Assembly (NCBI GenBank): GCA_947457105.1
Contig: CANGUP010000004.1
Coordinates: 1-49,021, forward strand
Direction: 5' to 3'
DNA from: Flavobacteriaceae bacterium
GTDB lineage: Bacteria > Bacteroidota > Bacteroidia > Flavobacteriales > Flavobacteriaceae
Length of the DNA stretch: 49,021 nt
Part shown: positions 3,580 through 49,021 of the stretch, one piece after another
Numbering within the stretch: position 1 is the first letter of the stretch
How the letters are laid out: every line of letters begins with the position of its first letter
Translations under genes and position numbers: made by a program
The notes under the pieces: model-generated
Told to the model about the DNA's origin: nothing
What the model saw: only the letters and a program-made list of their open reading frames with translations
The model's database searches: none

Positions 3580-4107
3580 TTATAGTCTATTTTTTATTAA
3601 TTTGGCAGGAATACCTCCCACAATAGTGTAGGGTTCAACAGTTTTATTTACAACAGCACCAGCTGCAACAATAGCTCCTTTTCCAATAGTTACTCCATCT
3701 AAAATTCTGCACCCTGAACCAATCCAAACATCATCTTCAATTATTATACCTTTCATTGTTAAACCTTGCACATTGATAGGCTTATTTATATCTGTATAAA
3801 TATGATTTGCAGGGATAATTAGTGTGTGACCAGCAATTAAAACATTATTTCCGATAGTTAGATTTCCATGCCCATATAAAATTGTATATGGATTAATTGA
3901 ACATTTGTTACCTATTATAATATTACCACCATAGGTCATCAAAATGACACCATGTAATAACTCTGACTTTGCACCAATCGTTATGGTCCCTCCATATTCT
4001 GTATTTAAAACAACATTAGGATAAATTTTAACTGAAGGATTTATAAATAACGTTTTTATACTTCTTTGCGTTATTTTTTTTATCCATTTTTTTAACTTTC
4101 TAACCAT
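3580..4107 (-). CDS. Left-handed beta-helix (hexapeptide) acyltransferase
   Basis: Hexapeptide repeats; [51 protein letters not shown]. Confidence 0.85.
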
Positions 4108-5315
4108 TTACAATCAATTTTGATATCGCCAATATTTCCAGAATATATTTTATAATCATTATCAAGATCTTCAATTTGAAAGAAACAAATATCATTCAAA
4201 TAATCATAAACTACTTCACCGAATGAAGCAACATCTATACTATACGATCCTTTTAATAATAATCCAGAAGGTATTTCACAAATTAAACTACTAGTTGATT
4301 TTTCAATTTTATGAACCGTTGTAAAAATTTTTGTCTTACTGTAATTTAAAAGCGCAATTCCTGCATTACAATTTTCAATTGGGTTGTTAAATTTAATTTC
4401 AATTTTTATGGGTTGTTTGTGATCAATAAATACTTTTTCATCAAGTATTTCAACCGAAACAATTCCATTCATTTTATTTGATTCTTTATTAATGAAATAT
4501 TTAGAGTTTGTATTTATTGAAGAATGATTAAGATAAAAATCAACTAAATCATTAACTTTTCCTGAATATTTTAATAAACCATTTTCTAACAAAATACCAG
4601 AATTACACAAACTTTTTATAGCTGCCATATTATGACTCACAAACAAAACGGTTCGTCCTTCACCTTTAGAAATGTCGCCCATTTTACCAAGGCACCTCTT
4701 CTGAAACTCGGCATCTCCAACCGCTAAAACCTCATCAACAATTAGGATTTCACTTTCTAAATGCGCAGCTACAGCAAAAGCCAATCGAACATACATTCCA
4801 GAAGAATAACGTTTTACTGGTGTGTCTACATACCTGTCGACTCCAGAAAAATCGATAATTTCATCTAATTTTCTAGTAATTTCTTTTTTGCGCATGCCAA
4901 GAATTGCTCCGTTAAGGTAGATGTTTTCTCTTCCTGATAGTTCGGGATGAAAACCTGTACCAACTTCTAGCAAACTGGAAATTCTTCCTTTTACTTTAAT
5001 TTGTCCTGTAGTAGGACTTGTGACTCTTGAAAGAAGTTTTAGTAAAGTACTTTTTCCAGCGCCATTTTTTCCGATGATTCCAATAGCTTCGCCCTGATTA
5101 ACCTCAAAGTTGATGTCTTTTAATGACCAAACAATATCGCTTGTTCCTTTTACACTTCGATCATTAGTTTCACCAATTTTAAGAAACGGATCTTCTTTAC
5201 CTAAAATTTTTGTTTGCCAAAAACGATCAATATCTTTAGACAATGTACCTGAACCTATCTGACCGATTTGGTAGGCTTTAGATAAATTATCAACTTTTAT
5301 TATTGTATCTGCCAT
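4092..5315 (-). CDS. Polysaccharide ABC transporter ATP-binding protein, Wzt-like, with C-terminal substrate-binding-type domain (copy 1)
   Basis: Walker [10 protein letters not shown], signature [12 protein letters not shown], Walker [14 protein letters not shown]; extended C-terminal beta domain. TAATG overlap with the upstream permease. Confidence 0.92.
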
Positions 5316-6184
5316 TATATTGTATCAACGAAATTTTTCTCGGTTTTGTTAAAAATGATAATTCCTAAGAATAAAATTATTAGTGTAACTACAATAGAAT
5401 ACCCTATACTCCCTAAAGTAAACTCACCTTTTCCTAAAAAAGCATATCGAAAAGCTTCTATTATTCCAGTCATTGGGTTTAGCTCAACTATAGTACTGTA
5501 ACCTTTTTCTTTAGCGTAACTTAATGGATAAATTACAGTTGTTGCATACATTAACAACTGAACACCAAAAGTCACTAAAAATGTTAAATCCCTATATTTT
5601 GTTGTCATTGCGGTAATTATTAATCCCAATCCTAAACCCAGAAGAGCCATTAAAATCACTAATAGAGGGAAGAGAAAAATTCCAGAAGTTACTTCAAAGC
5701 TTGTTCCTTGAATTGGAAAAAAGTAAAAATAAACCATCATACAAATCATAAGTAATAACTGCACTCCAAAACGCACCAAATTACTTACAACAATACTTAT
5801 TGGCATTATCAATCTTGGAAAATATACTTTTCCAAAAATATTGGCATTATCCCTAAATACAGTACTGGTTTTGGTTAAACAATCAGAAAAATAATTCCAT
5901 GAGGTGATTCCAGTTAAGTAAAATAGAAATTTTGGCAAACCATCTGTACTAATTCCTGCTAAGTTCCCAAAAACGAAGGAAAATACAATTGTTGTAAATA
6001 TAGGTTGAATAAAAAACCATAATGGCCCAAGAATAGTTTGTTTATAGAAGCTTACAAAATCTCTTCTTACAAACATGGCTAGTAAGTCTCTGTACCTCCA
6101 CAAATCACTGAAATTCAAATCGAAGAGAGAGGAATGTCCTTTTATTATTAAATCCCAATTTTGTGATTCCTGATTATCTTTCAT
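5315..6184 (-). CDS. Polysaccharide ABC transporter permease, Wzm-like (copy 1)
   Basis: DLLAMFVRRDFVSFYKQTILGPLWFFIQP...FGKVYFPRLIMPIS...ELNPMTGIIEAFRYAFLG typical of ABC-2 Wzm/RfbA permeases. Confidence 0.92.
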   Translation of the reverse strand: MKDNQESQNWDLIIKGHSSLFDLNFSDLWRYRDLLAMFVRRDFVSFYKQTILGPLWFFIQPIFTTIVFSFVFGNLAGISTDGLPKFLFYLTGITSWNYFSDCLTKTSTVFRDNANIFGKVYFPRLIMPISIVVSNLVRFGVQLLLMICMMVYFYFFPIQGTSFEVTSGIFLFPLLVILMALLGLGLGLIITAMTTKYRDLTFLVTFGVQLLMYATTVIYPLSYAKEKGYSTIVELNPMTGIIEAFRYAFLGKGEFTLGSIGYSIVVTLIILFLGIIIFNKTEKNFVDTI

Positions 6185-6297: not shown

Positions 6298-7065
6298 TTG
6301 TTACTTTGTAAAAAAATAGCTAATACTTTGTTTTTCTTTAAAAAAAATAGCCCATTCCTAAAAGACATAATCCCTAATGATTATACGGATATTCATTCGC
6401 ATTTATTGCCTGCAATAGATGATGGATCAAAAGATATTGAAGATACTTTGACATTGATAAACGAATTAAAAAAGTTAGGATTCTGTAATTTTATTACAAC
6501 ACCTCATGTAATGGAACATGTTTGGGAAAATTCCAAAACTAAAATTGAAAAAACTCTTGTAACAACATTAAGTCACCTAAAAGACAATATTATTGACAAT
6601 CCGTTTAAAGCTGCTGCAGAATATATGCTTGACGATAAGTTTAGAAAGTTATTTCAAGAAGAAACATTATTGACACTTAAAGAAAATTTTGTCTTAGTAG
6701 AAATGTCATACATTAACGCTCCATTACAATTGTATAACATTATATTTGATTTGCAAGTAGCTGGATACAAACCAGTTTTAGCGCATCCTGAACGATACAA
6801 TTTTTACCACAACAACCTCCAAGAATATAAAAAATTAAAACATGCAGGTTGTATGTTTCAAATCAATTTATTGTCAACCGTTGGCTATTATGGTCCGATG
6901 GTAGCAAAAACTGCAGATTATTTATTAAAAGAAAATTTAATAGACTTTGTAGGTTCTGATGTACATCACATGAAACATGTAGATTCATTTCATAAAAAAA
7001 TTGTTTTGAAAAACCTTGAACCTTTAAAGGAAGCTTTTCAAAACAATGTTTTATTTAAACCTTGA
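6298..7065 (+). CDS. CpsB/CapC (YwqE-like) PHP-type tyrosine-protein phosphatase; start codon uncertain
   Basis: DIHSHLLPAIDDGSKD...FITTPHVM...VLAHPERY...DFVGSDVHH. Track start is TTG at 6298; an in-frame TTG at 6328 giving (M)FFFKKNSPFLKD is another candidate. Confidence 0.88.
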   Translation: MLLCKKIANTLFFFKKNSPFLKDIIPNDYTDIHSHLLPAIDDGSKDIEDTLTLINELKKLGFCNFITTPHVMEHVWENSKTKIEKTLVTTLSHLKDNIIDNPFKAAAEYMLDDKFRKLFQEETLLTLKENFVLVEMSYINAPLQLYNIIFDLQVAGYKPVLAHPERYNFYHNNLQEYKKLKHAGCMFQINLLSTVGYYGPMVAKTADYLLKENLIDFVGSDVHHMKHVDSFHKKIVLKNLEPLKEAFQNNVLFKP

Positions 7066-7071
7066 TAAAAT

Positions 7072-9480
7072 TTATTTATTTTTAGCGAATAATGCTTTTA
7101 TTTTTTGAATAAACGTTAATTCTTTTTCTTCAACCCCATAGCCATAACCATAGCCATAACCATAGCCGTAACCATAACCATAACCATAACCATAACCGTA
7201 ACCGTAACCGTAAGTTTTCTTAACTTCAGTATCATTTAAAACAATTGACATGTTAGGCAACTTATTCTCTTTATATAATGTTTCAGCAAATTTAAGCATT
7301 CGCTTATCAAGATAATTGGCACGCATTACATAAATAAAAGCATCAGCATTTTTAGCAATCAATAAAGTATCTGTTACCACACTCACTGGAGCTGTATCGA
7401 CAACTATATAATCATATTGCTTTTTAAGTTCATCAAATAAAGTGGTAAGCTTATCATTCATCAATAACTCTACAGGATTTGGCGGAATAACACCAGATGG
7501 CAAGGCATTAAAATTATCAAAATCTTTTACTTTAACAATGTATTCCTTGATGTCTTCGTTTGGTTTTTTCAAGTAGTTTGTAATACCTTTAGCTGGTAGA
7601 ACAATATATTGATCCAGTTTAGGATTTCTAATATCTAAACCAATTATTAATACTTTTTTCCCTGACAAAGCAATAGTAGTCGCTAAATTAATGGCACAAA
7701 ATGTTTTTCCTTCTTTAGGCAAAGATGATGTTACAAATATAGTTTTACAAGCATTTTCAGGAACATGTGCAAGCATAAACTCTAAATTGGTTCTAATGAT
7801 TCTAATCGCTTCTGCAGAACTAGACCTACTATTAGATTGAATAATTACTTCATTAGTCTCAGATTTTGGCAAATCACCCAAGAAAGGAATAGAAACTTTA
7901 CCTTCAATATCTTGTCGGTACTTAATTTTAGTATCAAAGAAATTAATTAAAAATAATACTCCAAACGGAAGTAATAATCCTAAAATAATCGCGCCAAGAT
8001 AAAACATCGATTTCTTAAGTGAAATTGGTCCTGTTAGATAAGCATTGTCAATAACTTTAGCTTTGGCAGAAGTAACCGCTAATGATATTTCTGTTTCTTC
8101 TCGTTTTTGTAAAAGGTATAAATACAAAGATTGCTTTATATTTTGCTGCCTAGCGATTTCATTATAATTTCGTTCATTGGTAGGAACCTGATACACTTTT
8201 CCATTATAAAGGGAACGTTGTTTTAATAAATCTCTTTTTTGTATAGCTAAATCATTCTTTTTACTTAATAAACTTTGAATGATATTTTCTCTTAACTCCG
8301 AAATCCTCAAATCAATATTTTTAACTTTTGGATTGGATTCAGTGGCACTTTTGGATAACCTTCTTTTATCTAAAACAAGATCATTGTATTCTGTAATATA
8401 ATTAGAAGAAGTTTCTGTAGCTGATACTACATTTGTAGGGAATAATTCGTCTTTGTTTGTTTTTCTAATTTCATCTAATAGAAAATCTCTTACTTTTAAA
8501 TCTGTTTCAATAGCCAGAATCGATTTATTGTAATCAACTGCACCTCCAATACTCAATCCAGCATCTGACTCTAAACTAACTAATCCTTTGTCTTTTTTAA
8601 ACTGTTCGGCTTGCCCTTCCACACCACCTAATTCTTTGGTAATGATGTCTAATCGGTTGTTGATAAATTCTTTGGTAAACTCTGCAACTTGATTTCTATC
8701 CCTTACAGCATCTTCATTATATTGTTCTACCAATGCATTTAAAAAATCAACACTTCTTTTAGGTATTTGATCTGTTATACCTAAATTAATAACATTGGTT
8801 TTCTCAACTGAAAATACCGTCAACCTACCTCTAAAACCATTAGCTCTTTCTTCTAAGGTTGATTTCACAACAGTGATATCAACAATATTCTCAGGCATTG
8901 GATACGAATTTAACTTAACAATAAAACTCCCTAATTTAGAAGGCACTTTTTGACCAAAACTATAGCGCTTCGAATTCTTCTTTTCAACATTCAGTACTTC
9001 AAATTGTTCATTTGAAATAACTCTAATTATGAAGCTTAACGAATTCTCATTATAATCCTCTTTTTTGTCAGTGAAAATAACTTTTATTGGTGAATCATTA
9101 TAAAGTTCATTAAAAACAACTGTTCCTTCACTGAAATAAGAGATATCTAAATCCATTTTTTTAACAACATCCTGAGATAATTGTCTAGATTTTAAAATAA
9201 AAATCTCATTGTCAACATTATTCTTTCCTGAGAAAATATTCAAATCACTAAAAGCGGAGAACTCACTAGTACCCCCTTTTTTTTCGTCTTTTATCAAAAT
9301 GGAAGAAGCAGCTCCATATTCCACAACATAATATCTTAAATAAACAAAAGTGATAGTTAGAAGTACTAAAACACACATTACAAACCACTTCCAATGCTGA
9401 AGATAATTAAAGATTTGTTCCTTTAAAGTAACTTCATTTTGTGCTTCTGAATTCGATTTTTGAGACAATAAATTTAGCAT
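7072..9480 (-). CDS. Wzc-like polysaccharide co-polymerase / BY-type tyrosine kinase
   Basis: N-terminal Wzz-like domain; Walker A-type FVTSSLPKEGKTFCAINLA; DYIVVDTAPVSVVTDTLL; Tyr-rich C-terminal tail. Confidence 0.93.
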   Translation of the reverse strand: MLNLLSQKSNSEAQNEVTLKEQIFNYLQHWKWFVMCVLVLLTITFVYLRYYVVEYGAASSILIKDEKKGGTSEFSAFSDLNIFSGKNNVDNEIFILKSRQLSQDVVKKMDLDISYFSEGTVVFNELYNDSPIKVIFTDKKEDYNENSLSFIIRVISNEQFEVLNVEKKNSKRYSFGQKVPSKLGSFIVKLNSYPMPENIVDITVVKSTLEERANGFRGRLTVFSVEKTNVINLGITDQIPKRSVDFLNALVEQYNEDAVRDRNQVAEFTKEFINNRLDIITKELGGVEGQAEQFKKDKGLVSLESDAGLSIGGAVDYNKSILAIETDLKVRDFLLDEIRKTNKDELFPTNVVSATETSSNYITEYNDLVLDKRRLSKSATESNPKVKNIDLRISELRENIIQSLLSKKNDLAIQKRDLLKQRSLYNGKVYQVPTNERNYNEIARQQNIKQSLYLYLLQKREETEISLAVTSAKAKVIDNAYLTGPISLKKSMFYLGAIILGLLLPFGVLFLINFFDTKIKYRQDIEGKVSIPFLGDLPKSETNEVIIQSNSRSSSAEAIRIIRTNLEFMLAHVPENACKTIFVTSSLPKEGKTFCAINLATTIALSGKKVLIIGLDIRNPKLDQYIVLPAKGITNYLKKPNEDIKEYIVKVKDFDNFNALPSGVIPPNPVELLMNDKLTTLFDELKKQYDYIVVDTAPVSVVTDTLLIAKNADAFIYVMRANYLDKRMLKFAETLYKENKLPNMSIVLNDTEVKKTYGYGYGYGYGYGYGYGYGYGYGYGYGVEEKELTFIQKIKALFAKNK
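7135..7212 (-). repeat. In-frame hexanucleotide repeat encoding (Tyr-Gly)13 in the Wzc-like kinase tail
   Basis: Plus strand reads ccc ata gcc ata acc ata ... acc gta acc gta: 26 codons alternating Gly and Tyr, 13 pairs counted. Confidence 0.95.
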
Positions 9481-9485
9481 AATTA

Positions 9486-10193
9486 TTATTTAGTTACTAA
9501 TAAAGTAACAGTTAACAATAAACTAAAAATTGAGGCATATATAGGTAAATTTGGCAATGCTGATGCATCAATTTTAGCTTTCCTTTGTTCTACATAGACC
9601 AAATCATTTTGATCCATATAATAAAATGGTGAATTTACAAAATCTGCTTTGGTGATGTCAACTCTATTGAAGGTTTTTAATCCTTGAATATCTCTTACAA
9701 TCAATATATTATATCTTTTTGCAAAAACTGTTAAATCTCCAGAAGCACCTAGAGCATCAAATAGAGTTACTCTATGATTATTAAATGACCTCACTCCTGG
9801 TTGAAGCACATCGCCCAAAACTGTAACTTTAAAATTTAATATCTTAATATTTATAACTGGATTTATAAGATGTACAGCCAATTTTTGCTTTAGCATGCTT
9901 TTTAACTCTTTTATAGAATAACCTGAAACTTGTATATCACCAATAACAGGAAAATCTATTTTACCTTCATTATCTACCAAATAACTAGGTAAATTAAAAG
10001 GTGAAGCAGCCTCAACCTCTTGTGTAGTTACTGTAATAGACAACAAATCGTCATTTTGAATTATTGGGTCATAATTGGTAGATATATTGCTAAAGTCTTG
10101 TGAACCCTGAAGATAAACATACTTTTTTTTAGAAATACAAGAAGAAAAAAGAAACAGAAAAAGTATTGATATATAAAAGAAATAGTTTTTCAT
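9486..10193 (-). CDS. Wza-like outer-membrane polysaccharide export lipoprotein
   Basis: Lipobox-like FLFSSC; YDPIIQNDDLLSITV...YLVDNEGKIDFPVIGDIQVSGYSIKELK; VLGDVLQPGVRSF (SLBB-type). Confidence 0.9.
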   Translation of the reverse strand: MKNYFFYISILFLFLFSSCISKKKYVYLQGSQDFSNISTNYDPIIQNDDLLSITVTTQEVEAASPFNLPSYLVDNEGKIDFPVIGDIQVSGYSIKELKSMLKQKLAVHLINPVINIKILNFKVTVLGDVLQPGVRSFNNHRVTLFDALGASGDLTVFAKRYNILIVRDIQGLKTFNRVDITKADFVNSPFYYMDQNDLVYVEQRKAKIDASALPNLPIYASIFSLLLTVTLLVTK

Positions 10194-17844: not shown

Positions 17845-18900
17845 TTACTTTTTAATTATTTTTTTAATCGCTAGTAACAATAATAGTAAAGGAACTGTTA
17901 ATTTATATTTAGAAAAAAAGAAAAATAATTTCCAATGAATAGGAAAATAGCACAATTCCAAATTTCTAAAGGCTACTTTATGATGTCTAGAATTAAGAAC
18001 CGTTTTCATGTTCTTACATTTTGTAAAAAAAGAAGCTTTGTTAAAAGATTCATTCAAACCCAACCCAATAAGACTAAGACATATTCTATTGTTGAAAGCT
18101 TCTAGATAGTCGGTTCCTTTATTATGCTTTTTTAATTGTTCCGAAAGCAAATCGAACATATGATTGGTCTTGTCTAATAAACTATTTTTGTAATTTGAAG
18201 TAATAGACTCTGAATTAAACTTTCTATAGTTATACATTGGCACATCCAAAATGTAAACCGATTTTGACTGGTTGAGATACTCCCAAGTAAAAAAACCATC
18301 TTCCCAAGCTCCTATTTCACTAAGATTTTTAGCTTGAATTTTGTTTTCTTTAATGATAGCCGATTTATATAGTTTACCCCAAGCCGTAACTAAAGTTTCT
18401 AAATGACTTGGGTCTGAAAGTTCTTCTTTAATAGGACCTGTAATTCTTCTTTGCATAAAAGCAGCTTCATATTTTCCATTTAAACCAAAAACTCTAGCTA
18501 CTTGTGTAGTTGGATATTCTTTGTAAAAAGAAAAGCAAACCAAATCTACTTCATCAATTTTAGAAAATGCAGTTTCTATGGCATGCAATTCCATCCAATC
18601 ATCACTATCAACAAACATTAAATAAGCACCTTTTGCATTTTCGACACCTGTATTTCTTGCTCCAGCTAATCCTTTATTTGCTTGAGAAATAACAACGATT
18701 CTAGAATCTAATTGTTCATAAACTTCACATATCTTTAGACTATCATCCGTTGAACCATCATTTACAAGAATAATTTCTAGGTTTTTAAAGGTTTGATTAA
18801 TTATACTATCCAAACATTGCTTCAAGTATTTTGAAACATTATAAACAGGAATAATAACACTAATCAATGGACTCATTTTTAATTTATAATTTATATACAA
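17845..18900 (-). CDS. Glycosyltransferase family 2
   Basis: ISVIIPVYNVSKYLKQCLDSIINQTFKNLEIILVNDGSTDDS...YLMFVDSDDWME. Confidence 0.9.
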   Translation of the reverse strand: MYINYKLKMSPLISVIIPVYNVSKYLKQCLDSIINQTFKNLEIILVNDGSTDDSLKICEVYEQLDSRIVVISQANKGLAGARNTGVENAKGAYLMFVDSDDWMELHAIETAFSKIDEVDLVCFSFYKEYPTTQVARVFGLNGKYEAAFMQRRITGPIKEELSDPSHLETLVTAWGKLYKSAIIKENKIQAKNLSEIGAWEDGFFTWEYLNQSKSVYILDVPMYNYRKFNSESITSNYKNSLLDKTNHMFDLLSEQLKKHNKGTDYLEAFNNRICLSLIGLGLNESFNKASFFTKCKNMKTVLNSRHHKVAFRNLELCYFPIHWKLFFFFSKYKLTVPLLLLLLAIKKIIKK

Positions 18901-19981
18901 ATACGTTCATTATATAAGTAAAAGCAAAATAAGCTAAAATAATTCGCACTACAACTTGATGTTGATTTTCAAAAAATTTATGTTTTATAAGAGGATAAAT
19001 AATAACAACACCCAACATAAACCATGACAAATAAGCCAAACGGTTGGAATAGTTAGCTCTAATTACCAATATCCAAAAAGCATTGCAAAACAAGTAAATA
19101 TTTAATAATTGTAAATACATTTTGTCTTGATACTTTCTCCTAAATATATAATACCATCCTGCAAATACTCCTGAAGCACTATATAAAAGAAAATCCCAAC
19201 GAAAACCTACATTCAATTCTACTCCTTCTGCTGCTTGATCAAACTGTCCAAAATACCCTTCTACTGCTTTTTCTTCAACAATTCCAATAGTCATGAAGAA
19301 ATTTATAAAAAAACCACCTAAAGCCAAAGATAAAGGAATACAGGCTAGCCAAAAATAAAAATAAGCTTTTGAATTGTTGTAAACTAAAGTTGCTATATAT
19401 GCAAATAATGGCAACAACATCGATTTATGTACAAAAGTACTAGCAAACAATATTGTTAGAATCACAAAGTTTTTTTCTTTAGACAATCCGTACAAAAAAA
19501 GACTTGTGGCTATACCATTTCGCAGTCCATTGGTACCATAAGTCCAAAAAGAAAAAGAAATTACAAGCATAAAGAAACCATAAAACCAGTAGTCTTTAAA
19601 GAACTTTTTACAAGCTAGATACAAAGGAACTAAATACAAAATGGTACATAGAAAGAAAAACACAGAAGAACTGGCTACTTGAGCTATACCAAATTTAAAA
19701 TATTCGAAAAATAAATCTTTTTCAATCTTTAATGGTGCTCCTGAAACATACGTTTGAAATTGTCTATCATAAATTACCATATCTCCAAATCGATAATTCA
19801 GTGGACGCAAACCAATATAAAATAATAAAATAACAAAAATGATAAAACCCAGAACGTTTTTAGTATTCAAATTTTGAGACGACTCTAATTTTGTAAAACC
19901 TTGAGCCAATACAAACAAGGTCATTAACAATAAAAATTGATAATACAAGTTAGTGTAATATTCTGCAGGTATTAGATTCAT
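18884..19981 (-). CDS. EpsG-family / Wzy-like polysaccharide polymerase candidate
   Basis: Polytopic protein; ILLFYIGLRPLNYRFGDMVIY...LFFEYFKFG...RNGIATSLFLYGL...ASTFVHKSMLLPLFAY (EpsG-like). Confidence 0.75.
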   Translation of the reverse strand: MNLIPAEYYTNLYYQFLLLMTLFVLAQGFTKLESSQNLNTKNVLGFIIFVILLFYIGLRPLNYRFGDMVIYDRQFQTYVSGAPLKIEKDLFFEYFKFGIAQVASSSVFFFLCTILYLVPLYLACKKFFKDYWFYGFFMLVISFSFWTYGTNGLRNGIATSLFLYGLSKEKNFVILTILFASTFVHKSMLLPLFAYIATLVYNNSKAYFYFWLACIPLSLALGGFFINFFMTIGIVEEKAVEGYFGQFDQAAEGVELNVGFRWDFLLYSASGVFAGWYYIFRRKYQDKMYLQLLNIYLFCNAFWILVIRANYSNRLAYLSWFMLGVVIIYPLIKHKFFENQHQVVVRIILAYFAFTYIMNVFVYKL

Positions 19982-38910: not shown

Positions 38911-40191
38911 TTAAAAAAAATTAGCTTTCATCAAAGAAGAATGTCCTAATCTTATTTTCTTTTCAGGATTAAAAAAATTAGATTCTAAAATAGTCAAAGT
39001 AAGTGCATTTTGTAGTACATCGCAAAAATCTTCAGGCGCTGTAGATTTGTGAGAAATCTGATAATTAAAACTATAATTTTGAGGTCTTAAATTAACTTCT
39101 GGAATTTCTAATACAAATTTATTGTCTGCTATATTATCAAAATTATGTATCATTTCATCAGAAACCCAACCCACAATTCTATTTTCATATGTATCAGAGA
39201 AATTACATGCTACAATCATGTATTTTATATCAATGTTTTTCTCTTTTTCAAAGTAAAACTCAATTTTTAACATATCACCACTAAAAATCTCTGAAACAAC
39301 TTTATTGTTTTTATCTTTTAGTATTATGTCAGTAATCTTAATTTTTTCATTTCCAACTTTATCGGTTCTTGACAAAATTGGAACTCCTATTTGACCGTTT
39401 GTGTCGTTTAAGTAGGTTTCTATTGTTTGGTCAATTATGCCTTGAAAGTTTAAGGTTCCGTTTTTTAAATAAATTCCCGAATTACACAATGCTTTCACTG
39501 CTGCTAAATTATGACTTACAAATAAAACTGTTCTTCCTTCACCTTTACTTACATCGCCCATTTTTCCTAAACACTTTTTCTGAAACTCGGCATCACCAAC
39601 TGCTAATACTTCATCGACGATAAGTATTTCGCTTTCTAAATGAGCTGCCACTGCAAAGGCTAATCTAACATACATCCCAGAGGAATACCTTTTTACAGGT
39701 GTATCTATATATCTTTCAACTCCTGAAAAGGCTACAATTTCATCAAACTTTCTTGTAATTTCTGCTCGACGCATTCCTAGAATTGCTCCATTAAGATAAA
39801 TATTTTCTCTTCCTGTCATTTCTGGGTTAAATCCTGTACCTACTTCCAACAAAGAAGCAACTCTTCCGTTAACTTTAAAACTTCCTGTGGTTGGTTTTGT
39901 TACTTTACTTAAAAGTTTTAACAAGGTACTTTTACCTGCACCATTTCTTCCAATAATACCAACAGCATCTCCTTGTTGAATCTCAAAATTGATGTCTTTT
40001 AAAGACCAAACATATTTACTTCCACCAATTGATGTTCTATCATTAGTATCACCTATTTTTAGATATGGATTTTCTTTACCTCGAAGTTTATGCCAAAATC
40101 GATTTAAATCATGGGTAATTGTTCCTGTTCCAACTTCTCCCAATCTATATTGCTTCGATATATTTTCTGCAATTATTGCTAATTCTTTCAT
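38911..40191 (-). CDS. Polysaccharide ABC transporter ATP-binding protein, Wzt-like (copy 2)
   Basis: [72 protein letters not shown] very similar to 4092-5315 but the C-terminal domain diverges. Confidence 0.93.
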   Translation of the reverse strand: MKELAIIAENISKQYRLGEVGTGTITHDLNRFWHKLRGKENPYLKIGDTNDRTSIGGSKYVWSLKDINFEIQQGDAVGIIGRNGAGKSTLLKLLSKVTKPTTGSFKVNGRVASLLEVGTGFNPEMTGRENIYLNGAILGMRRAEITRKFDEIVAFSGVERYIDTPVKRYSSGMYVRLAFAVAAHLESEILIVDEVLAVGDAEFQKKCLGKMGDVSKGEGRTVLFVSHNLAAVKALCNSGIYLKNGTLNFQGIIDQTIETYLNDTNGQIGVPILSRTDKVGNEKIKITDIILKDKNNKVVSEIFSGDMLKIEFYFEKEKNIDIKYMIVACNFSDTYENRIVGWVSDEMIHNFDNIADNKFVLEIPEVNLRPQNYSFNYQISHKSTAPEDFCDVLQNALTLTILESNFFNPEKKIRLGHSSLMKANFF

Positions 40192-40196
40192 AATAA

Positions 40197-41048
40197 TTAA
40201 ATAGAGTCCATAAATCCTTTTTCTACTTTATTGAAAGTGATAACACCTACAAAAAGTAAAATTATAACAAACAAAGATGTAAAAATTAAACTACTTGGCT
40301 CAAAATGTCCAGAACCCAAATATCCATATCTAAAACATTCAAAAATTCCAGTTAAGGGATTCGCATTGACTATCCACCTGTATTGTTCTGGCATAGCCGA
40401 TATAGGATAAACTACTGGAGTAGCATACATATACAATTGGATTCCAAAAGCTAACAAAAAACTTAGATCTTTATATTTGGTAGTCATCGATGAAAATATC
40501 ATTCCTAATCCTAAAGCAAATCCAGCCATTAATAAAACTAAAAAAGGCGTCATTAAAACCCATAGATTGGGCTGTATCGTTTTATCGATAAACGTATAGT
40601 AAAGTACAACAGCAATAAACAATAAAAACTGAACTCCAAATTTTAATAAACCTGAAAAAACAATTGATAATGGCATAATCAACCTCGGAAAATACACTTT
40701 ACCAAAAATAGAGGCATTGCTTTGAAATACAGAAGAGGTTTTTACAAGAGAATCGGAAAAGTAATTCCAAATAGTAATTCCTGCTAAATAAAACGCAATT
40801 TGCGGAAGTCCATCGGTAGAAAGTCGAGCAACTTGACCAAATAAAACTACGTATATTAATGAAGTTAAAATAGGTTGCACAAAAAACCATATAGGTCCCA
40901 AAATAGTTTGCTTGTAAAAAGTGATAAAATCTCTTTTCAAAAGCATTAGCAATAAATCGCGATAATGCCAAAGTTCTTTAAAATTTACAGAAAACAATGA
41001 AGAATCTGCTTTAATCTCTTCGGTCCACAATTGTTTATTAGTATTCAT
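40197..41048 (-). CDS. Polysaccharide ABC transporter permease, Wzm-like (copy 2)
   Basis: DLLLMLLKRDFITFYKQTILGPIWFFVQPILTS...FGKVYFPRLIMPLSIV...NANPLTGIFECFRYGYLG. Confidence 0.93.
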   Translation of the reverse strand: MNTNKQLWTEEIKADSSLFSVNFKELWHYRDLLLMLLKRDFITFYKQTILGPIWFFVQPILTSLIYVVLFGQVARLSTDGLPQIAFYLAGITIWNYFSDSLVKTSSVFQSNASIFGKVYFPRLIMPLSIVFSGLLKFGVQFLLFIAVVLYYTFIDKTIQPNLWVLMTPFLVLLMAGFALGLGMIFSSMTTKYKDLSFLLAFGIQLYMYATPVVYPISAMPEQYRWIVNANPLTGIFECFRYGYLGSGHFEPSSLIFTSLFVIILLFVGVITFNKVEKGFMDSI

Positions 41049-41826: not shown

Positions 41827-41847
41827 GAACACTGAACACTGAACACT
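41827..41847. repeat. Tandem heptamer (GAACACT)x3 in intergenic spacer
   Basis: gaacactgaacactgaacact; another GAACACT lies at 41964-41970. Confidence 0.9.
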
Positions 41848-41862
41848 GAGCCTGTCGAAGTG

Positions 41863-41892
41863 AAAAAGCCCTTCCGTTTCCGAAAGAGCTTT
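41863..41892 (-). terminator. Rho-independent-type terminator for the adhesin gene
   Basis: Minus strand AAAGCTCTTTCG-GAAA-CGGAAGGGCTTT then TT: uninterrupted 12-bp stem with two G-U pairs and a GAAA tetraloop, T-run TTTTT; about 77 nt past the stop. Confidence 0.8.
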
Positions 41893-41935
41893 CTCTAATT
41901 ATTTCGAGTCCTAAGGACGAGTTAACCTAATAACT

Positions 41936-41970
41936 GAAATCTCAAATCCCAAATCTCAAATCTGAACACT
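41936..41970. repeat. Degenerate heptamer array GAAATCT-CAAATCC-CAAATCT-CAAATCT-GAACACT abutting the adhesin stop codon
   Basis: Five contiguous 7-mers read directly; the last overlaps the TAG stop (41969-41971, minus). Confidence 0.85.
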
Positions 41971-44900
41971 AATTAACCACTTTCTTAGTAGCCTTAAACC
42001 CATCAATAGTAGTAACTTGAACTAATAACACTTGATTCGTTGTCCCTACATTGATTTTAGTTTCTGAAGCATTGATGTTGGTTTTTGTAACCAATACTCT
42101 ACCTCTAATATCGTAGATAGTTACTTCTTTCATTGTAGTTCCAGAAGTTCTTACCACTACATCATTTTGTTGTTTGATAACATTGATGCTGTTTGATGTA
42201 AAGTTGTTATCCTCTATATCTAAAGCTGTTTGGTAAACCAATTCAAAACGATTTGCAAATGTTCCTGCTGCCGATGTGAAGGTGTAAGGCGAACTCAAGT
42301 TATGGTAAGAACCATCTTGATTGTCTTTAATGTAAATAGCTTGTGCACCACCTGTGAACAATCCGTCAACATGATTTATTGCAAAAGTATAGTTTCCTGC
42401 AGTTGTAACTTTATAGTTCAACGGAACTACATCGCTTGCTTGGAATGGCGTTGGACGACCTTGAATAACATATTCTGTACTTCCAATAATCATGTTTAAA
42501 GCCACTGGTCCATCGTTAAAATATTTACTATCGTATGCGTCAGCTCCAGAAGTAGCATTAGTGAAATACCCAACAACTGCCTGAGAATAAGCTCCTCCAG
42601 TTCCTGTTAAGTTCAACCAAACACGGTGTGCTTCATTGGTTGGCGTAGCACTTGTAGTAGTTTTAAAGAATTGATTAGCATTATTAGCAATACGTTGACC
42701 ATTATTAAATTCTAATGACGTTGCGCCATCTTTTGCCTCAACAAAGAAACCTTGTCCTGTTTGAATTACTCCATTTGGTGAATTAGTATTTGCTTCTCCA
42801 TTATCTCCAAAAGTTGCCGATGCGGTGTTCCAAGTACAATACGATGGACTTGCCGCATTGTTTGTTTTTCTCCAGAAGTATAAGGTTGACTCAATATTAG
42901 CAGAATTATCGGTTGCAAACTGCGCGATATCAATTGGTGACGGATAAGGATTACCAACAGCATTAAACTGTTGTGTTGCACTTACATTAACCAAAGTAAT
43001 AGTTTTTGTTCCATTGTTTGGAACTCCTGTAAAGCTACCGTTCCAAACAACTGGTGCTGTTGGGTGATTGTAAGGTAAACGAATTAAGTATCCTTTTCCT
43101 GTTGCAAATAATACGTTAGAAGTATCCGTTCCGTTTACTCCAGCGCCATTCAATCCTGTAATATTCAATCCGATTGAACTATTGTTATATAAGTTTGATG
43201 ACGTATCATATACATAAAAACGATTAGCAAACGTGAAAGGTGAAAACGCATACAATCCTTGACCTGTAACCGGTGAAGACCATAAGGTATAATCTAAACG
43301 AATTAATGGATTGGTTTGACGTTTCACTATAATGTTTCCTGTATTAACAGCAGATGCGTTAGATTGTAATAAATTAGCATTATTGTTTAAAGTAAAACTA
43401 CCAGATGCTACCGCTATAGCTCCATTTAAATTTACATTAATTCCAGATGTAACACTCACAATAGCATTATTAGAAACTGAAATACTACAAGCATCAAAGT
43501 CAGCTCCTATGGTGTAATTTCCTGTAAAGCTAACCGCTTTTGTACTTGTTGGTGTACCATTACTCCATGAAGTTCCATCCCAAGTAGTTGACTCTATAAT
43601 TACTATAGAAGAACCAGATAAAGTAGCTGAACAAGTTCCATCTGTTACAGAAATTAAATTCAAGGTTTGAGTAGCTGTAGCTGCTGATACTGTAACCGTA
43701 GCAGAACCACTTGTTAAAGTAGCTGTTGCATTAGAACCTCCATTTAAATTATAAGTAACTACAGCTCCAGAAGTACCTGCTAAGGTGAAAGTAATATTAC
43801 TTCCTGAACAAACAACTGGACCATTATTGCCAGAAATACTAGCAGTTGGTAGTGGGTTGACAGTAATTACTACTGCATTTGATGTTGCAGGTGAACCTGT
43901 TAAACAAGGTGTCGCATTCGAAGTCATTTCAACTGTAACTACATCATTATTTGCTAAAGTTGTAGAGGTGAATGTTGAAGCTGTCTCACCTAAAACTGTC
44001 TCACCATTTACAGACCATTGATAAGTTGGAGTTGAACCGCCATTAGTTGGTGTAGCTGTAAAAGTTACACTTGCTCCAGAGCATATTGTTGTTGTTCCTG
44101 TTGCTATACTTACGCTCGCTGGTATACTCGGAATCACCGTAATTGTCATTGTAGCGCTACTAGCACATTGCCCAATTGTTGGGGTAAAGGTGTAAGTAGT
44201 AGTAACTAAATTAGTAACTGCAGGCGACCAAGTACCAATAATTCCATCAACAGAAGTGGTTGGTAAGTCAGCCAAAGGAGCTCCTGAACAAATCGCAGGT
44301 ACTTGTGTAAATGTTGGAGCAGCAGGTTGTGTTCCTGTTACATCCCATGAACAAGAAGTTGTATTGAAGTTAGCTGTTTGCCAACAAGCCAATCCTGTTG
44401 GAGCAGCTGGTTGTGTTCCTGTTACATCCCATAAACAAGTAGTGGTATTTAAGTTTGCCGTTTGCCAACAAGCCAATCCTGTTGGAGCAGCTGGTTGTGT
44501 TACTGTTATAGTAAATGAAGTTGTTGTAGCGGTATTTGTTCCGTCGGTCCCGCTTAAAGTAACCGTGGTAACTCCTTTATTAAAAGAAAGTACCCCACTA
44601 CTTGTCCCATCGGATATTCCTAGTACAGTTCCCGTTGAAGCTCCTGAAAGAGTATACCCCCAGGTAGCTCCAGAACAATTGTCATTTATAGGATCCGCAA
44701 TGGTATAGTTAGCCGCACAAGTGCCAGAAATCACATCTATGGATTGGTTATTCGGACTAGTTAAAGTTGGCACTGCATTATCAATTACAGTTACGGTAAA
44801 GGAGCAAGATCCCGTGTTCCCGACGCTATCGGTAACCGTCCAAGTCACCGTAGTTAAGCCCTTGTTGAAGACCACACCAGCAAGTGTATTGCTTCCAGTT

Positions 44901-47900
44901 CCTGAAGTTGCACCAGCGAGTGTGTAATTAGTTGCAGTTACTCCGCAGTTGTCAATACTTCCCGAAGGGTCAAATTCTGCGCCCACGGTGGTGTAATTAC
45001 AAGCAAGTGCTTGGGTATTTCGGATGGGATCAGAAACAGTAACTTCTGCACCGAGATTGCTCAATGTGCCTTGGTTCGTCCAGGTATTCGTATTAAAGTT
45101 AAAAGATGCGGTTTGGCGACCGCTGCCAACAATCGACCACTTCTTGTTAGCCGGACCATTTGCAGACTGATTTATAACAAGCCAATATGTAGTTCCTGCT
45201 ACCAAATCGTAATTTGAGCTGAAGTTATTAATATTAACAAAGTTGCTTGTATTTGTTGCTGCACTATTAATTGGGAAATCAGACCAGTTAACTGTCTTCA
45301 AGGAAGCAAGAAGTGCCGTAGGAATAGCTCCGCTACCACTCCACAACTGCACATCGAATGTAGTGCTCCCTCCAGTTGAAGCATTCGATCTGTAGAGGTT
45401 AAGCTTGATGTTCGACACAGACCCGTTGGCGTTGGCAGTAAATTGCTGAGCCCAACGAGAGATGTTGGCAAAGGACTTATCACTAGCGGCAGTTCCTCCG
45501 CCGGGTGCGAGGTTATTGTAAACATTCACCTGCGCACCATTAAATGTGGAAGATACCGTTGGATTCTGGATATCGTTAACCGTTACGGTAAAAGTACATG
45601 AAGTACTACCACATGAATTAGTAGCTGTAGCGGTAACTGTTGTTGTTCCAACAGGAAAACTTGTTCCTGAGTTTTGAGAATAGATAACTGTTGGAGCAGG
45701 TGAACCTGTTACAGTAGCTGCAACAAAATTTACTATTGCACTGCATTCCCCAAAAGCAGTATTGACAGATACATTAGCAGGGCAACTAATTGTTGGTGCT
45801 GTATTAATTGTCAAGTTTAAAGTAGCCGTATTACAGCCCGTTTCAAAAATAGTTCCTGATTGGGCAGTAGTATAGACTTGTCCATTGGCTGGCCAAAAAT
45901 AGCTTTGACCAGAACAAATAGAAGTAGTTACACTTCCTGCAGTAGTATTTAGATTTACCGTTACCGTAGAAGAACCAGTTATTGTATCTGGACAAACTCC
46001 ATTAGTTATAGAAACTAAATTTAATGTTTGGTTAGTAGTAGCTCCTGTTACAGTAACGGTAGCCGTTCCGCTTGTTAAAGTAACTGTAGAATTTGCTCCT
46101 CCATTTAAGTTATAAGTAACCACAGCTCCTGAAGTACCTGTTAAGGTAAAAGTTGCATCAACTCCCGAACATATTGGACCATTATTTGATGAAATACTTG
46201 CCGTAGCCAATGGGTTAACTGTTAAAACACCACTATTATTTGTTGTTCCATTCCAGAAACCTCCACCACCAGCATTATAACCTCCATACTGCCAATCGCA
46301 AGTACCTTGCTTGTAACGGAACGCATAATAAAAAGTTCCAGATGAAGGTGGAGAAAGTGTATATAAATATTCGTCGTTATTTCCTGTAACAGCAGGATTA
46401 TGAGAAGCTGTAAACCAGTTGCTCCAAGTTGAAGGATTTGAATTTGTGCCACTATAACCAAATTCAACCGTAATTCCGGCACCTTGTCCAGCACCATTAG
46501 TTACCCCAGACTCAAAAACTTGTCCATAAGCCGTAAAACTAGCTCCTTCGCAAACCGTTTGTGAACCTGGAAATTGTAAATTAGTGTAATCAATAGCACT
46601 AGAAATCGTTAAAATACCTGTTTGAGTAACAACCGTAGCACATCCATTACCTGTTGTAGTAACAGTATAATTAAACACACCGCCTGCTGAAGGTATGCCG
46701 CTGATAGTAAATACACCAGTATTTAAGGTACCAGACATTCCTGCTGGCAATCCTGTAACCCCAGCTCCAGTAGCACCACCACCCACAGCATAGGTTATAG
46801 CTGTTGGAAGTACTGTATTTTGACAGAACGATTGTACATTAGTACCTAATCCACTAGTTAAACTAATTGTATGAGCAGCATTTGTGTTAACTGTTAAAAC
46901 ACCGTTTACATTAGTAGTTCCGTTCCAGAAACCTCCTCCTGAACCACTGTAACCACCATATTGCCAATCACAAGCACCTGATTTATATCTAAAAGTATAA
47001 TAGTAAACACCATTCAAAGAAGGTGTGAAATTATAAACATATTCGTCGTTATTACCCACATCAGAACCATAACCTGTAGTAAACCAGTTTGTCCAAGTAG
47101 CTGGATTGGTATTAGCAGTATCGTATCCAAACTCAACTGTAATTCCTGAACCTGCTCCTGCACCCGGTGTTACACCTGCTTGAAAAACTTGTCCATAAAC
47201 CGTATAAGTACCACCTTGACAAATCGTTCCCGAAGGAGGAAATTGAAGATTAGCATATCCTACTAGATTCGACACTTGCATAGTGATACCTGCTGAAGTT
47301 ACTGGCGAACCAGCTACACAATTAGCATTTGAAGTCATAACTACTGTTACTACATTCCCATTTGCTAAAGTTGACGTTGTAAAAGTCGAAGCAGTTTCAC
47401 CAGAAATATCACTTCCATTTACACGCCACTGATAAGTTGGTGTTGTTCCTCCATTAGTTGGAGTTGCTGTAAATGTTACACTAGTTCCTGAGCAAATTGC
47501 TCCAGAAGGAACAGCCGCAATACTTACACTAGCCGCAACACTCGGAGTTACGGTAATGGTAACAACTGCAGAAGTAGCCGATGCACATGCACCACTAGTG
47601 ACTACAGCTCTAAAATAAGTTGTAGTTGTTAAATTTCCTATTGTTGCTCCAGCTAAAGTTGCCGCAGTTTCTCCAGAAATATCTGTAAAAGTTATATTAT
47701 CTGGTGAAGATTGCCATTTAATTGTTCCTGTATTTCCTATTAATGAAATATCAGTTGGCTGTGTGTTTTCACAAATTGTTTGATCTGCTGAGACAGTTCC
47801 TGCAACTGACGCCGGAACTAAAGTTACTACAACACTACCTGTCATAGCCAGTGTTAAATTACATGTTCCATTAGTATTAGAAGCCTCTACTGTATAAGTA

Positions 47901-49021
47901 CCAGCTACTAATTGATTTCCAAAAGATATTGCGCTACCTGTTCCTGTAACTGGAGAACCAGTATTAGTACCTCCAATTTTTAACTGATAACTAACACCAA
48001 CTTGCGAATTAGCCAAACCAACCGCAACACCTGTAGTCGCACATCCATTTCCACCACCAGTAACGGAGTAAGCAACTGGTTCAACACATGTTACATTTCC
48101 TCTAAAATTAAAATCATTCAAACTTCCTGTTCCTCCTGTATTAGTTGCATTATAACCATATATTCTAAAAGTAATAGTTGATGAAATATCATTAAATGCA
48201 ACGCCAGATAATGAAAGAGTTTCATTATTTGAGATATTAGTAGCTGTGTTAGAATAAACCCCTAAATCAGTCGAAAAACCATCTAAACTTGAACGTACCG
48301 AAAAGTTTGATGGACCAGAACCAGATCTTTGATTTGTAAAATTAAAATCTTCAAAGTTAATACTATATCCTAAGTTTGGAGTTAATGATAATTCTATATA
48401 ATCATTAGCATCAATTGAGGTAGATAATGTCCAGTTTGTATTTGTATATCTATCATTTCCTGTTGCCCCTGAAATTCCTGAACCCCTAATCACGCCACTT
48501 ACAGTAATATTTGTATCAAAAGTTTGTCCTGTTGTATATGGACTCGTATTACCCGGAGATGAACCAGTAATTGGATTAGCAAAAATACTTACCGGCGCTA
48601 AAGTCACAACAATTGTTCCACTTGTATCTGGTGTTAAAACTCCAGAAGTTGTTGTTAAAGTATAAGAACCAACTGCATCAAATTGTGCAGCATTAAAAGT
48701 AGCTACACCTGCAACAGCTGCTACAGTTACAGTTCCTCCTAAGTTTCCTGGTCCTGATGCTTTAGCGATAGTTACGTTAGCTGTATACCCTGTATCTACT
48801 GAGTTATCTGGTCTTCTTGCTTCAACTGTGAATGAAGTTAAGTTAGTGCTAACATTTCCTGTTGCTGGTACTCCAATAAAAGTTAAATGATCGGCACCTG
48901 CAACCACATTAAATGCAGCGCTTATTCCAGCTGTCAATGGATCACCAGATGTTTGAGTTGCGGTAACTGTTGATCCTGTCCCTGCACTTGCTAAAGTCAC
49001 ACCAGAAACAACAATCGAGTT
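41969..49021 (-). CDS. Giant multidomain surface adhesin (Ig-like/PKD-like/HYR domains) with T9SS type A C-terminal sorting domain; partial, 5' end beyond the right edge
   Basis: The frame stays open to base 49021 (NSIVVSGV precedes the track's GTG 'M'). C-terminus SINVIKQQNDVVVRTSGTTMKEVTIYDIRGRVLVTKTNINASETKINVGTTNQVLLVQVTTIDGFKATKKVVN is T9SS sorting-signal-like; many Thr/Ser-rich Ig-like repeats. Confidence 0.9.
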   Translation of the reverse strand, partial: NSIVVSGVTLASAGTGSTVTATQTSGDPLTAGISAAFNVVAGADHLTFIGVPATGNVSTNLTSFTVEARRPDNSVDTGYTANVTIAKASGPGNLGGTVTVAAVAGVATFNAAQFDAVGSYTLTTTSGVLTPDTSGTIVVTLAPVSIFANPITGSSPGNTSPYTTGQTFDTNITVSGVIRGSGISGATGNDRYTNTNWTLSTSIDANDYIELSLTPNLGYSINFEDFNFTNQRSGSGPSNFSVRSSLDGFSTDLGVYSNTATNISNNETLSLSGVAFNDISSTITFRIYGYNATNTGGTGSLNDFNFRGNVTCVEPVAYSVTGGGNGCATTGVAVGLANSQVGVSYQLKIGGTNTGSPVTGTGSAISFGNQLVAGTYTVEASNTNGTCNLTLAMTGSVVVTLVPASVAGTVSADQTICENTQPTDISLIGNTGTIKWQSSPDNITFTDISGETAATLAGATIGNLTTTTYFRAVVTSGACASATSAVVTITVTPSVAASVSIAAVPSGAICSGTSVTFTATPTNGGTTPTYQWRVNGSDISGETASTFTTSTLANGNVVTVVMTSNANCVAGSPVTSAGITMQVSNLVGYANLQFPPSGTICQGGTYTVYGQVFQAGVTPGAGAGSGITVEFGYDTANTNPATWTNWFTTGYGSDVGNNDEYVYNFTPSLNGVYYYTFRYKSGACDWQYGGYSGSGGGFWNGTTNVNGVLTVNTNAAHTISLTSGLGTNVQSFCQNTVLPTAITYAVGGGATGAGVTGLPAGMSGTLNTGVFTISGIPSAGGVFNYTVTTTGNGCATVVTQTGILTISSAIDYTNLQFPGSQTVCEGASFTAYGQVFESGVTNGAGQGAGITVEFGYSGTNSNPSTWSNWFTASHNPAVTGNNDEYLYTLSPPSSGTFYYAFRYKQGTCDWQYGGYNAGGGGFWNGTTNNSGVLTVNPLATASISSNNGPICSGVDATFTLTGTSGAVVTYNLNGGANSTVTLTSGTATVTVTGATTNQTLNLVSITNGVCPDTITGSSTVTVNLNTTAGSVTTSICSGQSYFWPANGQVYTTAQSGTIFETGCNTATLNLTINTAPTISCPANVSVNTAFGECSAIVNFVAATVTGSPAPTVIYSQNSGTSFPVGTTTVTATATNSCGSTSCTFTVTVNDIQNPTVSSTFNGAQVNVYNNLAPGGGTAASDKSFANISRWAQQFTANANGSVSNIKLNLYRSNASTGGSTTFDVQLWSGSGAIPTALLASLKTVNWSDFPINSAATNTSNFVNINNFSSNYDLVAGTTYWLVINQSANGPANKKWSIVGSGRQTASFNFNTNTWTNQGTLSNLGAEVTVSDPIRNTQALACNYTTVGAEFDPSGSIDNCGVTATNYTLAGATSGTGSNTLAGVVFNKGLTTVTWTVTDSVGNTGSCSFTVTVIDNAVPTLTSPNNQSIDVISGTCAANYTIADPINDNCSGATWGYTLSGASTGTVLGISDGTSSGVLSFNKGVTTVTLSGTDGTNTATTTSFTITVTQPAAPTGLACWQTANLNTTTCLWDVTGTQPAAPTGLACWQTANFNTTSCSWDVTGTQPAAPTFTQVPAICSGAPLADLPTTSVDGIIGTWSPAVTNLVTTTYTFTPTIGQCASSATMTITVIPSIPASVSIATGTTTICSGASVTFTATPTNGGSTPTYQWSVNGETVLGETASTFTSTTLANNDVVTVEMTSNATPCLTGSPATSNAVVITVNPLPTASISGNNGPVVCSGSNITFTLAGTSGAVVTYNLNGGSNATATLTSGSATVTVSAATATQTLNLISVTDGTCSATLSGSSIVIIESTTWDGTSWSNGTPTSTKAVSFTGNYTIGADFDACSISVSNNAIVSVTSGINVNLNGAIAVASGSFTLNNNANLLQSNASAVNTGNIIVKRQTNPLIRLDYTLWSSPVTGQGLYAFSPFTFANRFYVYDTSSNLYNNSSIGLNITGLNGAGVNGTDTSNVLFATGKGYLIRLPYNHPTAPVVWNGSFTGVPNNGTKTITLVNVSATQQFNAVGNPYPSPIDIAQFATDNSANIESTLYFWRKTNNAASPSYCTWNTASATFGDNGEANTNSPNGVIQTGQGFFVEAKDGATSLEFNNGQRIANNANQFFKTTTSATPTNEAHRVWLNLTGTGGAYSQAVVGYFTNATSGADAYDSKYFNDGPVALNMIIGSTEYVIQGRPTPFQASDVVPLNYKVTTAGNYTFAINHVDGLFTGGAQAIYIKDNQDGSYHNLSSPYTFTSAAGTFANRFELVYQTALDIEDNNFTSNSINVIKQQNDVVVRTSGTTMKEVTIYDIRGRVLVTKTNINASETKINVGTTNQVLLVQVTTIDGFKATKKVVN
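44313..44504 (-). repeat. 84-nt tandem repeat encoding 28-aa units (AAPTGLACWQTANxNTTxCxWDVTGTQP), two full copies plus partial
   Basis: Units at 44313-44396 and 44397-44480 plus a partial start at 44481; protein shows PAAPTGLACWQTANLNTTTCLWDVTGTQ then PAAPTGLACWQTANFNTTSCSWDVTGTQ. Confidence 0.9.
46215..46590 (-). repeat. ~125-aa adhesin domain, copy A
   Basis: YTNLQFPGSQTVCEGASFTAYGQVFESGVTNGAGQGAGITVEFGY...CDWQYGGYNAGGGGFWNGTTNNSGVLTVN. Confidence 0.85.
46885..47260 (-). repeat. ~125-aa adhesin domain, copy B
   Basis: YANLQFPPSGTICQGGTYTVYGQVFQAGVTPGAGAGSGITVEFGY...CDWQYGGYSGSGGGFWNGTTNVNGVLTVN. Confidence 0.85.

Follow-up and report, generated by a model that had tools for sequence, protein, structure and literature searches.

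The stretch of DNA analysed here, all 49,021 nucleotides of which are called the window, carries on its minus strand a wzc gene for an 802-residue protein (Table 1). The Pfam profiles GNVR and AAA_31 matched this protein above their cut-offs and Wzz and CbiA just under theirs (Wzz at 24.4 bits, cut-off 25.5), and the NCBIfam model TIGR01007 scored 145.5 bits (cut-off 108). A Wzz-like periplasmic part with a GNVR region is fused to the kinase, and the match to full-length Wzc falls in two stretches. The closest relatives in the PDB are E. coli Wzc, S. aureus CapAB, Etk, BceF and VpsO. In an AlphaFold model of residues 515–802 (pLDDT 84, pTM 0.80) the kinase core is ordered, the disorder corresponds to the tyrosine array described below and residues 790–800 form a short helix of moderate confidence; the best Foldseek matches of the model were Wzc 7nhr, 3la6 and CapAB, with a probability of 1.00. 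Assignment to the Wzc-type BY-kinases, and with it the reading of the array as a kinase tail, is well supported by these profile matches and the predicted fold.

Table 1. Features of the wzc region, in window coordinates
Feature	Position	Strand	Basis
CpsB/CapC (PHP-class) tyrosine phosphatase gene	6298..7065	+	PF19567 (9e-43); Cps4B model matched below cut-off
wzc, 802-aa PCP-2a polysaccharide co-polymerase with BY-kinase domain	7072..9480	-	Pfam, TIGR01007, PDB sequence and fold matches
C-terminal extension VEEKELTFIQKIKALFAKNK, predicted helix at residues 790–800 (7081–7113)	7075..7134	-	translation, model
(Tyr-Gly)13 array, imperfect hexamer repeat (TAY GGN)13	7135..7212	-	translation, TRF; predicted disordered, pLDDT about 30
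Walker B, YIVVDTAP, D695	7387..7410	-	D181 invariant in alignment A3
Walker A' variant, GLDIR (GxDxR instead of DxDxR)	7627..7653	-	alignment
Walker A, SLPKEGKTF, K592	7699..7725	-	E-G-K invariant in alignment A3
EX2RX2R oligomerisation motif, EAIRIIR	7792..7812	-	E43, R46 and R49 invariant in alignment A3
wza-type outer-membrane export protein gene (Poly_export/SLBB)	9486..10193	-	profile matches
EpsG-family protein, candidate Wzy-type polymerase of the cluster	18884..19981	-	PF14897; polymerase role inferred

The phosphatase gene is convergent with wzc and ends 6 bp from the wzc stop codon. Of 142 homologous loci, 91 had this arrangement, and in no case did the phosphatase lie on the same strand as wzc. 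Glycosyltransferases and sugar-modifying enzymes are further neighbours, and Rfam gave no match between window positions 6000 and 10600. Two Wzm/Wzt-type ABC transporter pairs (4092–6184 and 38911–41048) flank the Wzc/Wza/EpsG-family cluster, so that one locus holds two export routes. At the far end of the window, a 2343-residue protein (41969–49000) has a type IX secretion sorting domain (NF033708); its gene contains an 84-bp tandem repeat (44312–44508), and heptamer repeats of GAACACT and AAATCTC lie just past its stop (41827–41963).

Near the end of wzc, 13 uninterrupted Tyr-Gly codon pairs, exactly 78 bp, encode residues 757–782, and the translated protein ends as NDTEVKKT(YG)13 followed by the extension VEEKELTFIQKIKALFAKNK. 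The initial annotation had placed a (Tyr-Gly)13 tail here on a Wzc-like tyrosine kinase, at the C-terminal cluster of tyrosines that such kinases autophosphorylate in regulating polymer export. The perfect peptide, its coordinates (TRF: period 6, 13.0 copies, 88% matches) and the class of kinase (TIGR01007 above cut-off; Foldseek matches to Wzc and CapB) were all borne out. The array does occupy the place of the phosphorylated Tyr cluster, but it is not the very end of the protein, being followed by a 20-residue basic and aromatic segment. In homologues this segment contains W or F in 145 of 149 cases and is net positive in 148 of 149. The Walker A' motif is GxDxR in most homologues and ExDxR in some, with the second Asp kept, and the DxDxR form was found in none of the Bacteroidota kinases compared, Hoylesella included. 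As judged from these alignments, the post-array segment and the GxDxR/ExDxR motif distinguish the kinases of this phylum from E. coli Wzc.

The peptide is perfectly repeated, whereas the DNA beneath it is codon-scrambled. The third bases of the Tyr and Gly codons run, unit by unit, CT CT CT TT TT TT TT CC TT TC TT TC TG. Relative to the modal unit TATGGT, the array departs at eight third bases and nowhere else, so that its 26 codons hold no non-synonymous difference. The longest pure tract is four TATGGT hexamers (24 bp). Elsewhere in the source genome, a run of at least 4 YG units was found only in a second Wzc paralogue, with five units. The genome has two further Wzc paralogues in all (contigs C82 and C16), and the tail of the one on C82 reads (YG)5 and then AYSNGYHEEEE. 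For what is likely to be a self-phosphorylation tail, 13 Tyr-Gly pairs make an unusually long run.

Homologues of the kinase were present in 96 of 101 sampled genomes of the genus, the named relatives being mostly Flavobacterium. Their arrays range from 2 to 14 YG pairs, and arrays of at least 9 units occurred in 54 of 400 genus genomes; among the sequences compared, YG arrays are nothing out of the ordinary for this kinase family. Across about 150 homologue tails, the spacing from one Tyr to the next was two residues in 864 of 959 steps (90%). Some homologues have tails with YxxY steps (GYGYGGYGYGG) or with just 2–4 Tyr. Degenerate tails, including a group of the type YGYGYGYKYSYGYSYGYNYGYGYGY, keep the Tyr in phase while the intervening residue drifts among G, S, K, N, A, T and Q, and in one pair of such tails the Tyr number was unchanged (13 in both) at a dS of 1.2. 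With Tyr held in phase and its partner residue variable, the unit under conservation looks like YxY rather than a DNA repeat. Some public records bearing Flavobacteriales-like wzc contigs are titled Bifidobacterium breve (L130), Klebsiella pneumoniae (L164) or Chryseobacterium gleum (L174). The kinase tail of L130 is that of a genome of the window's own genus (G021), and L130 and L164 are probably mislabelled bins.

Changes of array length were compared in genome collections holding one genome per species. The nearest relative (dS 0.34; core nucleotide identity 92%) has 9 units against 13 in the window, and the next relatives have 10, 8 and 5. All changes between species were of whole, in-frame units. 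Among 33 independent nearest pairs, length had changed in 9 of 10 pairs with long arrays (mean above 6 units) and in 6 of 23 with short arrays (p = 0.0015). One clade has exactly 4 units and a neighbouring one up to 13, and within the 4-unit group that number was retained in several species pairs whose dS was close to 1 or higher. Assuming about 2 × 10⁻¹⁰ mutations per site per generation, we estimate that the change between 9 and 13 units at dS 0.34 requires roughly one event per 10⁸–10⁹ generations, far below the rates of phase variation. The length of the array clearly differs from species to species.

The spread from 2 to 14 Tyr, the coexistence of the 4-unit and the up-to-13-unit clades and the finding that no individual Tyr is essential in E. 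coli (PMC8285477) would all fit neutral drift of a low-complexity tail, in which, beyond a few YG pairs, any number is tolerated and length carries no meaning. This is unlikely, however, given eight silent and no replacement changes in the window array, the retention of Tyr phase in tails that have otherwise drifted, and the constancy of four units in several pairs at high dS.

If single hexamers slip in and out, adjacent units should match more often than they would if the array were shuffled. The opposite was observed. Identical adjacent hexamers numbered 108 against 132 expected in 82 arrays (55 below expectation, 19 above) and 184 against 234 in 129 arrays, the arrays in these tests and the next partly sharing ancestry and a few entering twice via different records. 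With neighbour-codon context preserved, 177 ± 10 were expected in 123 non-pure arrays and 130 were found. Neighbour-codon context as the source of the alternating hexamers was thus rejected, and it showed no association either (p = 0.17 and 0.70). The share of GGC among Gly codons was 31% in the arrays and 18% for Gly before Tyr elsewhere. At distances of 12 and 18 bp hexamers were identical more often than expected, with weaker support than the depletion at lag 1: the ratios of observed to expected identity at lags of one, two and three units were 0.71 (bootstrap 0.59–0.82), 1.24 and 1.21, and when the last unit was dropped the lag-1 depletion survived while the excess at lags 2 and 3 lost the support of the sign test.

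In the few settings simulated, copying of single units gave lag-1 ratios above 1, copying of blocks of two and three units gave 0.81–0.93, and block copying with a mild bias against identical neighbours gave 0.64. Block copying of 2–3 units without selection therefore comes close to the observed 0.71, which in these simulations is matched better when a bias against identity is added; we do not claim selection as proven, and part of the anti-repetitive codon pattern may be due to block copying alone.

The array in the window is uneven. Its 5' half holds runs of three and four identical units and its 3' half alternates, and it belongs to the minority of arrays with identical neighbours above expectation, having more of them than the average array. 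Given these runs, one or more recent single-unit gains in the 5' half are possible. Pure hexamer arrays of TATGGT, TATGGA, TATGGG or TATGGC, 9–13 copies long, were found in five other species (L015, L094, L091, G319 and G002), and it is these, rather than the array in the window, that are candidates for slippage. They raise the prospect of Tyr number as an evolvable ratchet dial with two DNA states, in which pure arrays would slip within a population and codon-scrambled arrays, which are the majority and to a large extent include the window's, would be locked by synonymous choice; we hold this to be doubtful.

The initial annotation had gone further, proposing that a slippage-prone 6-bp repeat, every gain or loss of a unit being in frame, could make Tyr number, and hence polymer length, vary among the cells of a single clone. 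The in-frame part agrees with all the changes seen between species. Nearly all sister species with long arrays differ, the window has four units more than its nearest relative, and the 5' runs and the pure arrays elsewhere point the same way. The slippage-prone part is not supported by the DNA: the window lacks the long uninterrupted short-unit tract of a slippage contingency locus, its purest tract being only four hexamers, the neighbour statistics have the sign opposite to single-unit slippage, and the event rate estimated above is too low. With codons mostly mixed in this array, a fast-slipping dial is unlikely here. What stands of the proposed rheostat is slow, in-frame change between species; as a mechanism acting within a clone we judge it quite unlikely.

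The array is probably the autophosphorylated tail of a Wzc-type BY-kinase, in the form of an uninterrupted YxY track, with a number of steps that evolves by in-frame gain and loss. In E. coli Wzc the tail enters the adjacent active site with the Tyr at i-2 in a pocket, phosphorylation proceeds from C to N, and the fourth phosphate is followed by disassembly (PMC11986026); the extent of phosphorylation matters, not any particular Tyr (PMC8285477). By analogy, we infer that the present tail is phosphorylated, in that order and with an effect of step number, as follows. Each tail would thread into the active site of the adjacent kinase within an octamer. A Tyr lies at i-2 of every acceptor in the window except the first, and would serve as both clamp and next substrate; because (YG)n supplies this clamp throughout, we read the array as an extended ratchet track. 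Phosphorylation would walk from C to N, in as many as 13 steps, until the ring comes apart under its charge; the tail would be reset by the CpsB-type phosphatase encoded beside wzc. A larger number of steps would mean slower disassembly and longer bouts of polymerisation. Between species, the number would change mostly by blocks of 2–3 YG units. As synonymous mixing prevents a pure microsatellite, it should be nearly fixed within a clone. In the pairwise alignment a Met stands opposite E675, the pocket residue of E. coli Wzc, and the published means of telling Tyr from pTyr is therefore not conserved in place; the kinase may work like the Wzc ratchet, and we do not count it a proven member. 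Because a helix follows the tail, threading also cannot proceed exactly as it would from a free C-terminus like that of E. coli Wzc. The absence of the first Asp from Walker A', the homologues with YxxY steps or few Tyr and the surplus of identical neighbours in the window's array likewise speak against this reading. Phosphorylation-tuned, condensate-like clustering of octamers by a sticky tail would suit the Tyr/Gly-rich composition, the predicted disorder and 13 Tyr on each of eight chains, but is most improbable, being superfluous for explaining the data, indifferent to strict YxY spacing and at odds with the bare 4-unit tail that is enough in many species.

The number of steps before the Wzc ring disassembles is thought to set polymer output and has so far been studied mainly through mutants of the E. 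coli tail. The Flavobacterium relatives provide natural alleles in which kinases otherwise alike have 2–14 nearly ideal YxY steps, and this makes the relation of step number to polymer length directly testable. A perfect peptide repeat in anti-repetitive DNA also offers a clean case of a repeat length that is evolvable and yet apparently stable.

Among the 15 best literature matches listed, none combined GYGYGYGY with a tyrosine kinase or exopolysaccharide. Morona is said to have described in 2003 a (YGX)4 repeat domain in S. pneumoniae CpsD together with the CpsB phosphatase. As cited in later papers, that system shares with ours tandem Tyr-Gly phosphoacceptor repeats and a PHP-class phosphatase (PMC4574921, PMC4340800), but its YGX period is three with four repeats and its activator CpsC is separate, whereas the window has period two and 13 repeats. 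P. gingivalis Ptk1, a BY-kinase of the same phylum with a C-terminal Tyr-rich cluster, has demonstrated autophosphorylation (PMC4082711). Akkermansia Amuc_1413 is alike in the repeat-driven variation of a Wzc-like gene, but there a phase-variable G9 tract acts as a frameshift on/off switch (PMC13055324), whereas the repeat here is in frame and forms the acceptor tail. Synonymous codons that interrupt repeats are also known from repeat-avoiding codon choice, which those studies treat for nucleotide repeats genome-wide (PMC1378130, PMC2430213) and which here concerns a single array, on the scale of hexamers, within one gene family. With E. coli Wzc (PMC11986026, PMC8285477) the window kinase shares the PCP-2a BY-kinase architecture, a C-terminal Tyr cluster, YxY spacing and an opposing phosphatase. 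It differs in the Met at E675, in the C-terminal helix after the tail and in its phosphatase, which is encoded by a neighbouring PHP-class gene rather than being an LMW-PTP; and whereas the E. coli tail is a short mixed Tyr cluster, that of the window is a perfect YG track of 13 Tyr.
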